This document shows, piece by piece, positions 43,974-47,934 of a stretch of DNA of 64,000 nucleotides. The translations under genes were made by a program, and so were the position numbers. The notes beneath the pieces were generated by a model, which had not been told where the DNA came from, made no database searches, and worked only from the letters and a program-made list of their open reading frames with translations. Origin of the DNA: Arthrobacter sp. OV608 (GTDB taxonomy: Bacteria > Actinomycetota > Actinomycetes > Actinomycetales > Micrococcaceae); NCBI GenBank assembly GCA_900110595.1, contig FOEZ01000014.1, positions 37,814 through 101,813 on the forward strand, given 5' to 3'. The first letter of the stretch is position 1; every line of letters starts with the position of its first letter.

Positions 43974-44373
43974 CGCTACTGGCCTCGATTTCTGGATCGA
44001 CCTGGTATCGGCCGCCTTTATGGTGGTCGGTGCCATTCTGTCGCTGGGAGCGGCGATCGGCCTGCTGCGGTTCCCGGACCTGCTCAGCCGCATGCACGCC
44101 GCCACCAAGCCGCAGGTCCTGGGCTTGTTCCTGCTGCTGGCCGCGATCGGGCTGCAGATGCGGTCCTGGTGGGTATGGCCGGTACTGGTGGTGGCCTGGA
44201 TCTTCCAGCTGCTGACGGTGCCTGTGTCCGCCCATATGGTGGGCCGGGCCGGCTACCGCACCAAGCACCTGCACCGCGAACTGCTGACAGCCGACGAACT
44301 GGAGGCTGTAGTGCAGAAAGCCGCCGCCAAAACCGCCCGCGAGGACGGTTCCGGCGACGGCCAGGTGAGGTAA
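43963..44373 (+). CDS. mrpG: Na+/H+ antiporter subunit G
   Basis: Protein of 136 aa. Start at ATG 43963 with GGGAG just upstream. AAFMVVGAILSLGAAIGLLRFPDLLSRMHAATKPQVLGL is the MrpG core. Three helices and a charged C-terminal tail. It overlaps mrpF by 11 nt and closes the operon; it converges on the DUF4235 gene 10 nt away with no clear terminator between. Confidence 0.94.
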   Translation: MSPDATGLDFWIDLVSAAFMVVGAILSLGAAIGLLRFPDLLSRMHAATKPQVLGLFLLLAAIGLQMRSWWVWPVLVVAWIFQLLTVPVSAHMVGRAGYRTKHLHRELLTADELEAVVQKAAAKTAREDGSGDGQVR

Positions 44374-44383
44374 CTTCCGCGGG

Positions 44384-44647
44384 TTAGACGATGTCCTGGC
44401 TCTTGGCGAACCGGGTGATGGCGCGCTGGGTGCCGCGGTTGGCCAGGACCTGGATGATGGTGCTCACCGAGGCCGAGATCAGCGCGAACGTCAGCGCGGA
44501 CTGCAGGCTGGTGGGGATGTCCTCGTCCTTGCCGGTGGGCGGTTTCCGGCCGGTGGACTTTTCCCAGATGGTATTGACCAGCTTGGTCCCGACAAAGCCG
44601 GCGCCAAGGCTTATACCTGTACCGAGCAACTTGATGAAGAGGTTCAT
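44384..44647 (-). CDS. DUF4235 membrane protein
   Basis: Protein of 87 aa. ATG 44647 has AGGAG 8 nt upstream, so I reject the longer frame. Two helices (IKLLGTGISLGAGFVGTKLVNTIWEK; ALTFALISASVSTIIQVLANRG) with the WEKSTGRKPP motif of DUF4235. Function unknown. It lies downstream of the CDGSH gene by 95 nt on the same strand and may be read with that operon. Confidence 0.85.
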   Translation of the reverse strand: MNLFIKLLGTGISLGAGFVGTKLVNTIWEKSTGRKPPTGKDEDIPTSLQSALTFALISASVSTIIQVLANRGTQRAITRFAKSQDIV

Positions 44648-44742
44648 TCTTTGTACTCCTTGCGGGCGGAAAACGGGCTGTACCCAGCCTAACCGCCCAT
44701 TCTGCGGCTGTGGCACAGCAACGGCGGCGGGGTTCGAGTGCG

Positions 44743-44958
44743 TCAGGTGGCGGGTGGTTCCGTCCGGAACTTGATCATTTTGTGGGTTCCATCGCAGTAA
44801 GGCTTGATCGCCGAGGCGCCGCACCGGCACAGTGCCACGGTCTGGCGCTGCCGGGGGACCGGAGTACCGGATGGCGTCACGATGTCGAAGTCGCCCCGGA
44901 CAATCAACGGGCCGTCGGGGCACACCACGATCGAGCTTTCGGCGGGTTCCTGGTTCAT
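44743..44958 (-). CDS. CDGSH iron-sulfur protein
   Basis: Protein of 71 aa. CRCGASAIKPYCDGTH is the CDGSH motif: three Cys and one His bind a 2Fe-2S cluster. The remainder is a short beta-rich lead (DGPLIVRGDFDIVTPSG). Small bacterial CDGSH proteins carry single electrons or act as redox sensors. ATG overlaps the stop of the glycosyltransferase gene by 4 nt, so it is the third gene of a coupled set with the di-metal oxidase; I infer electron supply to that oxidase. Confidence 0.93.
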   Translation of the reverse strand: MNQEPAESSIVVCPDGPLIVRGDFDIVTPSGTPVPRQRQTVALCRCGASAIKPYCDGTHKMIKFRTEPPAT

Positions 44959-46022
44959 AGCTGCTCCTTGGGTACGTTGGCGGGCTTCAAATGGTGGTGG
45001 GCGTTCCCGAGCTTGCCGTGGTGCCGGCGCCGAAGTTGGGCTTCCGAGTGGGCTGCTGTCTTGAGCCGCGCCCCGGCGTACGGCACACCGCCGGCGAGCC
45101 TGAACCCAAGGGCCATCCAGATGCAGGCGCCCCGTTCCAGGATCCAGAGCGGGGCGAACAATGTGGCCCGGAAGGGGAAAACCGCCCTGCCCGAATGCCG
45201 CCGTCGTCCTATCTCGGCGATGAGGACCGGGGCGGCTGCCAGTGCCAGGAGGGCGGGCCGACGGCGGCCGGCGGGAAGGCGGGCAGCGCAGGCGATCACC
45301 GGGAGCAGGGCAAGTTCGACGGCGAGGCGCCGCGGCTGGGCGAAATCGTCGTAGGCCTGGCGTGTGCGCTGTTTGAGGAAGTGCCGGAACTTCGGCGGCC
45401 TGCGGGCCACCATCAGATCAGGGACAATCCTTTCCCGGCCGCCTGCGGCTTTGACGGTGCGGATCAGCTCAAGGTTCTCGAAGAGCACCGGATCGTAGCC
45501 GCCGGTAGCCAGCAGCGCGCTCCTGCGAACCGCCAGGGTGCCGGGGTAGTCCGCCGACCATGCCCGGTTGATCAGGGTCCGCGCCGTATCCCACCACGCA
45601 TGCCAGGGCAGCGGGTCAAAGTAATTCTGCGGCCGCACAATGTCTGCCGAGCTGAGGTGTTGGACGACGGCGGTGAGCGACTCGCGCGTGTAGCGGACGT
45701 CGTCGTCGGCTACCACGAGCAGTTCCGCCGCGGAGGCTCGCACGCCGGTCATCACGCCGGCCACCTTGCCGTTACCGGCCGCGCTGTTAGCGCCGCCGCC
45801 GGCGGGTTCGGGACGGATATGGCGAACTCCGGGCGGAAAGGCGGCCCGGTGCCGCTCGAACAGGCCAGGGGCGGAGCCGTCCACCACAATGACCGGGATC
45901 CACCGAAGAAGCCGCTCGAGGTAGGCCGCCAGGTCCTGCAGCTCCGAATCCCGCGCCGACCCGGCAGTCCAGCGCAGGGGCAGGATGTACTCCGCGGACG
46001 GCATCACGGGCGGGGTGCTCAT
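44955..46022 (-). CDS. GT2-family glycosyltransferase, membrane-linked
   Basis: Protein of 355 aa. An N-terminal nucleotide-sugar domain (IPVIVVDGSAPGLFERH, VVADDDVRYTRESLTAVV with the D-D-D metal motif, and an ATGGYDPVLFENLELIR acceptor region) is followed from ~residue 245 by hydrophobic segments (ELALLPVIACAARL, LLALAAAPVLIAEI, FAPLWILERGACIWMALGF). It would glycosylate a lipid or hydrophobic acceptor at the inner face. It overlaps both neighbours by 4 nt (oxidase upstream, CDGSH downstream). Confidence 0.85.
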   Translation of the reverse strand: MSTPPVMPSAEYILPLRWTAGSARDSELQDLAAYLERLLRWIPVIVVDGSAPGLFERHRAAFPPGVRHIRPEPAGGGANSAAGNGKVAGVMTGVRASAAELLVVADDDVRYTRESLTAVVQHLSSADIVRPQNYFDPLPWHAWWDTARTLINRAWSADYPGTLAVRRSALLATGGYDPVLFENLELIRTVKAAGGRERIVPDLMVARRPPKFRHFLKQRTRQAYDDFAQPRRLAVELALLPVIACAARLPAGRRRPALLALAAAPVLIAEIGRRRHSGRAVFPFRATLFAPLWILERGACIWMALGFRLAGGVPYAGARLKTAAHSEAQLRRRHHGKLGNAHHHLKPANVPKEQL

Positions 46023-47074
46023 GCTGCCGCCGGTACGGCCGCCCTCAGCGAGGTCACTCCATTTTCCCAGCTGGCCAGGAGATGGGTGGACATCCTGCCG
46101 TCGATGGCCATGGCCGCCGTCGCCCCGAACAGGACGTCGGCGAGCAGCCCGGGCTCAGCTTCCACCAGGCCGCCTGCGAGGTCGCGCCCGGCGATCTGCT
46201 CATGGACGGCGTCGGCTTCCACGTGCTCATCGAAGTAGCGGGTCACTTCAGCGTCGAAGCCGTGCCGCCTGAAGCCGTTGCCGTACAGCCGGTTGGGTTG
46301 GGAGGAGGTCATTTCATAGAGGGCCAGGTGCCCGGTGATGGCCCCGCGCAGCCGGCGGTTCAACCCGAAGAGAGACATCATGTTGACCGCCGCGAGGGAG
46401 ACGGCGGGAACGGCGTCGACGTAAGCGCCGTACTGGTCATCCATGTCCAACCCCCGCATGGTGCGGGCGAACAGCGCGCTGTGCATCCGTTCGGGGCGTC
46501 CGCCGCCGTACTCGTCGGCCTGGATTTCCACAAGGGCAGCCTTGGGCCTGCCGGTGAGGCGGGGGATGGCCCAGGTATGCGGGTCAGCTTCCTTGAGCTG
46601 GTAGATGGACTTGTGGATCAGGAACTCCTGGAGCTGGTCCAGCGTCGCCTTTTTGGCCACGAAGCGGGAGACACTGGGGCCAGTGTCGCTGGCAGCGAGG
46701 CCAAACAGGATGTCCGCCACGGCGTCACTGGTGAGCTCCGCGGCGGGCGGCACGTTGATCTCTCCGGCGGCGGAGGCGGCGGCAGCCCGGAGCGCCGCTT
46801 CGAACGGGCGCTCCATCAAGCGGCGCAGATGGATCAGCCCGGGTTCCCACTCCCACTCGTCACTGACCCCTTCCAGCCCCGAATAGTGCAGCTCGTAAAG
46901 GCAGAAGAGGGCCAGTTGGACGTCGTCGTCGCCAATGATGTCTTTGTAAGCCTTGGGCGTGGCAAGCAGGCGCAGGTCCTCGACGGCGGCGGCACCGTCG
47001 TCACTGCCGGGCGTGCAGGTGAGGGCACGGAAGAGGGTGCTGGTGATGGGACCTCGAGGTTCCGGGATCTTCAT
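46019..47074 (-). CDS. Iron-containing redox enzyme, haem-oxygenase-like di-metal oxidase (HDO)
   Basis: Protein of 351 aa. The C-terminal two thirds is an all-helical haem-oxygenase-like fold with metal ligands arranged as in HDO enzymes: LYELHYSG (Glu61, His63), VEIQADEYGGGRPERMHSALF (Glu183, Asp187/Glu188, His198), and FDEHVEADAVHEQIA (Asp282, His284, Asp288, His291). HDO enzymes (for example SznF, UndA, CADD) do O2-dependent N-oxidation, C-C cleavage or decarboxylation on small molecules. First of three overlapping genes. Substrate not predictable. Confidence 0.83.
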   Translation of the reverse strand: MKIPEPRGPITSTLFRALTCTPGSDDGAAAVEDLRLLATPKAYKDIIGDDDVQLALFCLYELHYSGLEGVSDEWEWEPGLIHLRRLMERPFEAALRAAAASAAGEINVPPAAELTSDAVADILFGLAASDTGPSVSRFVAKKATLDQLQEFLIHKSIYQLKEADPHTWAIPRLTGRPKAALVEIQADEYGGGRPERMHSALFARTMRGLDMDDQYGAYVDAVPAVSLAAVNMMSLFGLNRRLRGAITGHLALYEMTSSQPNRLYGNGFRRHGFDAEVTRYFDEHVEADAVHEQIAGRDLAGGLVEAEPGLLADVLFGATAAMAIDGRMSTHLLASWENGVTSLRAAVPAAA

Positions 47075-47131
47075 GGTGCTCCTTTGGGCGGACGGCGTTG
47101 CTGCGTCATCGACAGCGGGTTTCGGTGGGCG

Positions 47132-47644
47132 TTAGGTCTGGTTGTGCTCGTCCGGGTTCCGGGCCGGGCGGTCCATGCCCTGGCTGCCGGGAAAGGACTT
47201 ATCGCCGGGAACGGTCTTTGGCGACAGCAGGACGGCAAGGGCGATCATGGCCAGGCCCAAGGCCAGGTGCAGCCAGTTGTCCGCATTGTTTTCGGGAAGG
47301 AAGTTTGCCGGCAGGTCATCGCCCATCAGCAGGCCGTACAGCCAGAGGAAGAGGTAGGCGACGCCCCCGTAGATGAGGAAGTTCCGTCCCTGCCGGTGCG
47401 TTCTGGCCATCACCAGCCCCGCAATAGCTGTCGCCAAATGGGCGGCATTGTGCAGCACCGACACTCGGAAAACGCCGAACAGTTCTGCTTTAGAGCCGGG
47501 TCCGGCGAGGCCCAGGGAATCGAAATCGGCGGTAATGCCAGGAATGAATCCCAAGATCCCCAGCAGCAGGAAGACGATGCCCGTGGCAAGGGTGGCCTTC
47601 TGCAGGCCCGTCCTCGCTTCGGTGGCGCGGGTGCTGACCGCCAT
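47132..47644 (-). CDS. DUF4383 membrane protein
   Basis: Protein of 170 aa with four helices. FGVFRVSVLHNAAHLATAIAGL and NNADNWLHLALGLAMI are the histidine-bearing motifs of DUF4383. The C-terminal ~25 residues are polar. Function unknown. It ends 57 nt before the HDO oxidase gene on the same strand, so it could be the first gene of that operon. Confidence 0.85.
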   Translation of the reverse strand: MAVSTRATEARTGLQKATLATGIVFLLLGILGFIPGITADFDSLGLAGPGSKAELFGVFRVSVLHNAAHLATAIAGLVMARTHRQGRNFLIYGGVAYLFLWLYGLLMGDDLPANFLPENNADNWLHLALGLAMIALAVLLSPKTVPGDKSFPGSQGMDRPARNPDEHNQT

Positions 47645-47724
47645 ATGCTGTACTCCTCAAAAGCCGGGAACAACATAGTAAGCATGATTACTAATAAATG
47701 CTAAGTACGCTTCCTGCCCGGAGT

Positions 47725-47934
47725 TCACTCCTCCGGATTGTTCCAGGCGTAGGGATTGGCGTGGTGCCCGCCGTGGCGGCCCTGCTCATACCCCTGCTGC
47801 CAGGCCTTCCCGACGGCGGCCACAAGTTCTGCGAGCAGGGGATAGTAGGGATGGTCGGGGCCAATGTAGATCATTTCGTCCTCGGCTTTGTCCACCGCCG
47901 CCCGCACCTGGTTTTCCCCCAATGGACTGCTCAC
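47725..47934 (-). CDS. Hypothetical 69-aa protein
   Basis: Begins MSSPLGENQVRAAVDKAEDE, with a helix-rich middle (YYPLLAELVAAVGKAWQQGYEQGR) and a His-rich end (HGGHHANPYAWNNPEE). Codon use is like the surrounding genes, which supports a real gene. No family recognised. It follows the haem-binding-like gene by 44 nt. Confidence 0.6.
   Translation of the reverse strand: MSSPLGENQVRAAVDKAEDEMIYIGPDHPYYPLLAELVAAVGKAWQQGYEQGRHGGHHANPYAWNNPEE

Follow-up and report, generated by a model that had tools for sequence, protein, structure and literature searches.

A haem-oxygenase-like dimetal oxidase and a CDGSH protein as a conserved gene pair in stress-related settings of actinobacteria

About a dozen haem-oxygenase-like dimetal oxidases (HDOs) have been functionally validated so far (PMC13108848). 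Their ligands follow the motif E-H-E-H-(D/E)-H, with a seventh, glutamate ligand in SznF-type members (PMC11363339). The substrate of SznF is a methylated arginine (PMC13108848). A dedicated redox partner of an HDO was first proposed only recently, for MboA-MboB of mangotoxin formation, which in its authors' view may be the first characterized pair of this kind (PMC13185094). DtpC of Acinetobacter baumannii, in turn, is an HDO that is co-transcribed with the catalase KatE and guards the cells during drying, for which its ligand residues are required (PMC13232832). Here we compare with these systems a locus in a window of 64,000 nucleotides from Arthrobacter sp. OV608 (contig FOEZ01000014.1; all coordinates are positions in this window), where an HDO is encoded together with a GT2 glycosyltransferase and a small CDGSH protein. 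What is new is the CDGSH partner and the stress setting, for an HDO of the known N-oxygenase type.

The three proteins are specified by minus-strand open reading frames (ORFs): the HDO (46019..47074, 351 residues), the GT2 (44955..46022, 355 residues) and the CDGSH protein (44743..44958, 71 residues). Both junctions are 4-nt ATGA overlaps, so that the exact overlaps given in a preliminary description of this DNA are borne out by the ORF coordinates. Pfam assigns the first to Haem_oxygenas_2 (PF14518, 6e-61), the third to zf-CDGSH (PF09360, 2.5e-19) and, weakly, the second to Glyco_transf_21 (PF13506, 1.3e-6; 28.5 bits against a cut-off of 21.7), three further GT2 models staying under their cut-offs; none of the three reaches the cut-off of an NCBIfam model. 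The host genome, of Pseudarthrobacter/Arthrobacter type, has one match each for CDGSH, HDO and, at E 1e-30 or better, GT2.

The HDO shares with SznF and RohS its fold, as seen in a predicted structure (model confidence, pLDDT, 94.3), and the 3H/4C pattern of ligands. HDO structures rank first in the structural comparison, and the best matches in both structure and sequence are the N-oxygenases HrmI, SznF and RohS; in the structural alignments HrmI and RohS are 16-19% identical to it. It resembles SznF in having an N-terminal helical part with the HDO fold and in the alignment of all seven 3H/4C positions, and differs from it in lacking a cupin domain, in an identity of 18-19% and in that SznF belongs to secondary metabolism. 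SznF is not known to have a CDGSH partner. HrmI has been reported as 3H/3C (PMC13108848), unlike the 3H/4C set of the window.

Amongst 140 HDO relatives, E188, H198, E254, H284, D288 and H291 are invariant and fit the published motif; E162, which aligns with residue 189 of SznF and with a glutamate of RohS, is equally invariant, so that the seven positions aligned to the SznF 3H/4C ligands are candidate ligands present in 140/140. (The frames of L135 and L165, which have an internal stop, were kept in this count, with X at the stop.) The ligand set listed previously holds for E188, H198, H284, D288 and H291, whereas E183 and D282 are not invariant and E162 and E254 had been missed; with the list corrected to seven residues, conservation among homologues is complete. 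The two residues given up are kept in 80/80 and 77/80 of the closest loci, respectively, and in 43/60 and 35/60 of the class-wide ones (both samples are defined below). In residue numbers, the published E143-H153 spacing of DtpC equals that of E188-H198; the paper on DtpC makes no mention of CDGSH (PMC13232832). The likeness to MboA-MboB is that of an HDO with a partner gene conserved alongside it. MboB, however, is a flavin- and Fe2S2-containing NAD(P)H reductase and MboA catalyses a desaturation (PMC13185094), whereas the partner here consists of a CDGSH domain only.

Pairing of the oxidase with CDGSH and transferase genes

Three samples were used: the best 80 of at least 575 confirmed HDO relatives (the named loci); 60 class-wide loci from 17 families, chosen from 171 HDO-positive genomes; and 296 genomes of the class. 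A strong HDO match is one with a best E below 1e-50, by which 20 of the 171 genomes, with weak matches (best E 3e-17 to 6.5e-5), were excluded to leave 151; two of those excluded, G076 and G098, carry CDGSH. It should be noted that neighbour counts are approximate, because genes were called by a simple script, and that all P values ignore kinship between genomes.

In actinobacteria, HDO and CDGSH make up a conserved unit. At 3 kb or less from HDO, a CDGSH gene is present in 72/80 named and 49/60 class-wide loci, and five of the eight named loci without a nearby CDGSH stop at a contig edge. The earlier pathway idea was to fall if the genes were rarely neighbours in other genomes, but they are neighbours repeatedly. 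In the 296 genomes, a strong HDO occurs in 151 and CDGSH in 178, with both in 128, HDO only in 23, CDGSH only in 50 and neither in 95 (Fisher 2e-19). The CDGSH gene follows HDO on the same strand in some loci and is convergent or divergent in others, and the pair is therefore not one frozen stretch of synteny. Chance adjacency is rejected by the survey. Across 122 sequences, the CDGSH ligands C44, C46, C55 and H59 (3Cys-1His) are at least 99% conserved; the protein thus carries the ligand set of a 2Fe-2S cluster, and such a cluster is predicted.

An inherent bond of CDGSH to HDO is likewise rejected, given the 50 genomes that hold CDGSH without a strong HDO match. In eight CDGSH-only loci no HDO was seen by eye in the ORF lists, where no family search was made; in four of these (L245, L246, L249 and L250) the simple choice of ORFs did not list the CDGSH frame itself. 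In some genomes without this HDO (L243, L244, L247 and L248) the CDGSH protein, of 63-74 residues where its ORF is listed alone, stands in other settings; judged by eye, its neighbours include a glutathione-peroxidase-like gene in one case and ThiF/MoeB-like genes in another.

HDO-CDGSH is joined by a transferase, which in some clades is a dedicated GT2 and in others a HemK2-like methyltransferase. The GT2 subfamily (threshold E 1e-30 or better) was found in 23/296 genomes, all 23 with both HDO and CDGSH, and in 22 of them the gene is directly 3' of HDO on the same strand, with gaps of 0-391 nt (in G196 it is elsewhere). Within 3 kb of HDO it is present in 37/80 named and 13/60 class-wide loci, all three genes being found in 29/80 and 13/60, and 32 of 49 HDO-GT2 pairs again show the 4-nt overlap. 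Its DXD-type acidic motif, D106-D107-D108, is invariant in 23 aligned sequences and kept at 96% or more in 47; E182, E185, Q218, R219 and R221 are also conserved. As to the membrane segments attributed to it, residues 232-252 stand out clearly in a simple hydropathy scan, and residues 87-105 are borderline.

The methyltransferase is of HemK2/MTQ2 type (TIGR00537, 106 bits against a cut-off of 87). At E 1e-20 or better it was found in at least 56 genomes, all positive for HDO and 55 for CDGSH; the exception, G038, is a weak methyltransferase match. The count is a lower bound, as G041, G059, G092 and G246 hold clustered relatives under the cut-off. GT2 is absent from all 56 (hypergeometric 7.5e-6) and from these four. 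The distance between the methyltransferase and HDO is no more than 6 kb in 46 of the 54 genomes in which the place of HDO was among the matches listed. In a quick HDO tree (without L135 and L165, and with 40 of its 136 inner branches uncertain), GT2 loci and methyltransferase loci fall in separate parts, each mixed with loci having neither, and GT2 is patchy across Arthrobacter. Being patchy inside one clade and replaced elsewhere by the methyltransferase, GT2 was rejected as a core part.

Stress links of the module

The HDO-CDGSH module lies in probable stress regulons of several lineages. In that of the window, a 19-bp near-palindrome, TTAGTAATCATGCTTACTA in minus-strand reading (47676..47694), precedes the series DUF4383-HDO-GT2-CDGSH, 32 bp before the start of the gene for the DUF4383 membrane protein (47132..47644, minus strand; PF14325, 2e-40). 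In 28/80 named loci this gene stands before HDO in the same orientation. Because of this position and of the conserved palindrome just ahead of it, it probably belongs to the transcript, as had been suggested, and in this lineage is probably its first gene. The palindrome precedes the operon in 21/80 named loci (23 matched the scan; L024 and L034, with the site far upstream, were excluded), and in six loci without an upstream DUF4383 gene (L006, L007, L018, L021, L025 and L047) it is found some 105-125 bp before HDO itself.

With up to 3 mismatches, the palindrome has 23 matches in its own genome, compared with one for the reversed pattern; these are 17 distinct sites, because near-palindromes match both strands. 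Fourteen of the 17 were inspected, and 13 of them precede a script-called gene start by no more than about 160 bp. TTAGTAANCATGCTTACTA-like sites (L173, L174, L177, L178, L180, L182, L185, L187, L189 and L190) precede the genes of three related helical LEA-like proteins (recognized by eye; no Pfam match) and, by Pfam, those of a Transgly_assoc membrane protein, a PAP2 protein, a CBM_48/alpha-amylase debranching-type enzyme and a GCS2 ligase; some sites stand before genes without an obvious tie to stress. The palindrome is probably the operator of a stress regulon. A MarR gene is divergent from one of the LEA-like genes (L178), and its product is a candidate regulator of the set. With up to 2 mismatches, sites occur in 13/13 genomes of the genus, the own genome included, and in 0/6 others. 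The closest relative of the HDO, at 92-93%, is from Pseudarthrobacter siccitolerans, which has been described as highly desiccation-tolerant (PMC3836493). The main text of a paper on drought and Arthrobacter sp. Helios does not contain the words CDGSH, redox enzyme, DUF4383 or glycosyltransferase.

In other lineages the link is with SigB/SigF-type promoters. A motif of the GTTT-N14-17-GGGNA type precedes HDO in 17/60 loci, as against 60/1034 other genes (P 1.6e-7), and its strictest form in 5/60 as against 16/1034 (P 0.004); a differently built scan of 350 nt found it in 12/140 HDO upstreams and in 136/2800 random windows, all 12 being outside the named set. In family f10 (20 regions, 19 genomes), which we take to be Mycobacteriaceae, a SigF-type motif stands before HDO in 15/19 and before the methyltransferase in 15/19, the background being 16 of 134 genes with these two included (P 3e-9 for HDO). 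The SigF regulon of Mycobacterium smegmatis offers a parallel, with a 'methylase' and two conserved proteins (MSMEG_1771, 1772 and 1773) in the order expected for methyltransferase-CDGSH-HDO and with SigF-type promoters that resemble those of locus L235; it differs from the operon of the window in having a methyltransferase in place of GT2. In a sigF mutant these three genes are some 16- to 80-fold lower (log2 about -4 to -6.5; PMC4694148), and they are modestly up in log-phase cells of multiply spray-dried lines (PMC5445863).

Mn-catalase genes provide a further link: of 25 in the 60 sampled genomes, five are within 6 kb of HDO, where 0.05 would be expected for an assumed genome of 5.7 Mb (Poisson 3e-9); two of the five cases are from one genus. 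DtpC is similar in that an HDO is tied to desiccation, oxidative stress and a catalase gene (PMC13232832). Because the palindrome regulon, the SigF-type promoters, the proximity to Mn-catalase and the DtpC parallel come together, a role of the module in stress is likely. The stress-regulon setting, absent from the preliminary description, favours a protective function over ordinary secondary metabolism.

Mn-catalase, hemerythrin-like and zinc alcohol dehydrogenase-like genes recur near HDO in L125, L127, L140, L146, L161 and other class loci, where a topoisomerase IB-like protein is also encoded (our own reading; no NCBIfam match). These surroundings resemble general-stress islands.

A proposed pathway and its alternatives

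Gene pairing, fold, ligand conservation and regulatory setting having been established by computation, we give an even chance to a stress-linked oxidation module in which an N-oxygenase-type HDO, served by a dedicated CDGSH protein, leads to a glycosylated or methylated compound that protects against stress. As regards metal, substrate, electron path, product and order of steps, we infer the following scheme. Drying, osmotic or oxidative stress would be the trigger; the HDO would bind two metals, probably iron, activate O2 and oxygenate a small molecule, with nitrogen as the most likely site of attack. Electrons from the CDGSH protein would convert the diferric HDO site to the diferrous form, ready for the next turnover, and the oxidized product would be capped, by glycosylation in the lineage of the window and by methylation in other clades, to give a protective metabolite or lipid. 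The donor role and the sugar-modified product are predictions that fit the observations; the methylated-arginine substrate of SznF is a possible parallel to the methyltransferase partner. We put forward more tentatively, as possible but doubtful, that about half of the sampled genomes of the class share a hitherto unrecognized pathway of general stress. In it an N-oxygenase, supplied by a CDGSH donor of its own, would form a protective N-oxygenated compound (or an oxidized lipid or cofactor), to be capped with a sugar in some lineages and with a methyl group in others.

If true, HDO and CDGSH would be the first redox pair of their kind, and their product the first stress metabolite with an N-oxygenated group to be common to actinobacteria; amongst the literature matches listed, no paper joining CDGSH with HDO-type enzymes was found. 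As partners of HDOs, bacterial CDGSH proteins would have a definite function, and the module would be candidate chemistry for the tolerance of stress and desiccation by soil actinobacteria. With a 2Fe-2S partner kept over many families, the question of the electron source becomes testable with two small, soluble-looking proteins.

A number of points weigh against the scheme. CDGSH is missing from 23/151 genomes with a strong HDO, 20 of them in family f24, and is therefore not strictly needed; the most serious objection to it as the sole donor is that most genomes of f24 lack it. Named loci L034, L037 and L038 also lack CDGSH, with full flanks. At least one f24 genome, G132, does carry CDGSH. 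In three of eight f24 loci fetched (L130, L137 and L142) the gene of an NPPY-motif protein overlaps the called HDO start; it is close upstream in L135 and about 9 kb off in L134. The protein has no Pfam match at 0.01, and its motifs suggest that it is possibly another methyltransferase, the f24 HDO possibly having another electron source. GT2 as an essential part, as first supposed, is unsupported, there being none within 3 kb of HDO in 43/80 named and 47/60 class-wide loci and a methyltransferase instead in other clades. SigB/SigF control was rejected for the lineage of the window: no such site turned up in any of the 80 named loci within 350 nt of HDO, or in the 200 nt before DUF4383 in the 28 loci that have it, including that of the window, and the palindrome was found in its place, so that the links to stress run through different regulators in different lineages. 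The identification of MSMEG_1771-1773 as methyltransferase, CDGSH and HDO would follow from gene order and the L235-like promoters; the printed M. smegmatis promoter was found in 0 of 396 genomes searched. The spray-drying study reports no differential expression of the cluster in the dry powder itself and credits survival to carotenoids (PMC5445863). Finally, shared ligands are no proof of N-oxidation, and the CDGSH protein might transfer clusters or regulate instead.

The last of these possibilities, that CDGSH delivers clusters or iron, or senses redox state, and so loads or protects a labile dimetal site while another reductase gives the electrons, is in our judgement not likely, but it deserves serious attention. 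HDO dimetal sites have been described as labile (PMC13108848), the 71-residue protein includes no reductase domain, and most f24 genomes lack CDGSH although the HDO ligands are kept there; the tight gene pairing over many families nevertheless suits a redox partner at least equally, and no Fe-S assembly gene is prominent among the neighbour clusters, where none was searched for by family. The enrichment of Mn-catalase genes near HDO would also suit an enzyme that itself protects the drying cell, using up O2, peroxide or free iron, with no dedicated product and with the transferases riding along. DtpC limits peroxide in dried Acinetobacter and needs its metal ligands to do so, its authors listing scavenging and iron sequestration among the possibilities (PMC13232832). 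We think this explanation fairly improbable, as a substrate is suggested by a GT2 subfamily that is confined to HDO genomes and in almost every case coupled to the HDO gene, together with the methyltransferase that replaces it elsewhere, and as the full-length HDO fold matches biosynthetic N-oxygenases.

HrmI and SznF work in natural-product pathways (PMC13108848), from which an ordinary tailoring pathway of secondary metabolism, with no link to stress, might be supposed here as well. This is improbable: HDO is found in half of the class (151/296), the module has regulatory sites in common with stress genes, and assembly-line genes (not searched for by family) are not prominent among the neighbour clusters. 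Gene order common to related genomes would, in principle, allow a chance or inherited arrangement without function. The survey makes this scarcely credible, since the genes stay together while orientation and spacing differ between families, and since GT2 and methyltransferase are found solely in HDO genomes. A stress-linked oxidation module remains our preferred reading.

Neighbouring genes and plasmid copies

Behind the CDGSH gene is that of a DUF4235 membrane protein (44384..44647, minus strand; PF14019, 2e-20), whose suggested membership of the operon is unsupported: it is close behind CDGSH in nearer relatives only, and is probably no more than a neighbour. A scan of 44300-47800 for sigma-70 promoters and terminators gave nothing informative. 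Before the operon, and in the same orientation, an HbpS-like protein with a haem-degrading domain (PF03928; 47979-48500) is kept in the nearest relatives. Between its gene and the palindrome is an ORF of 69 residues (47725-47934), kept in near relatives, with a weak, below-cut-off resemblance to ribosome modulation factor and no family assigned. Plasmid copies of the pair were also seen: in Curtobacterium HDO and CDGSH overlap by 4 nt, and in Streptomyces HDO is accompanied by CDGSH and a HemK2/MTQ2 methyltransferase in convergent orientation.

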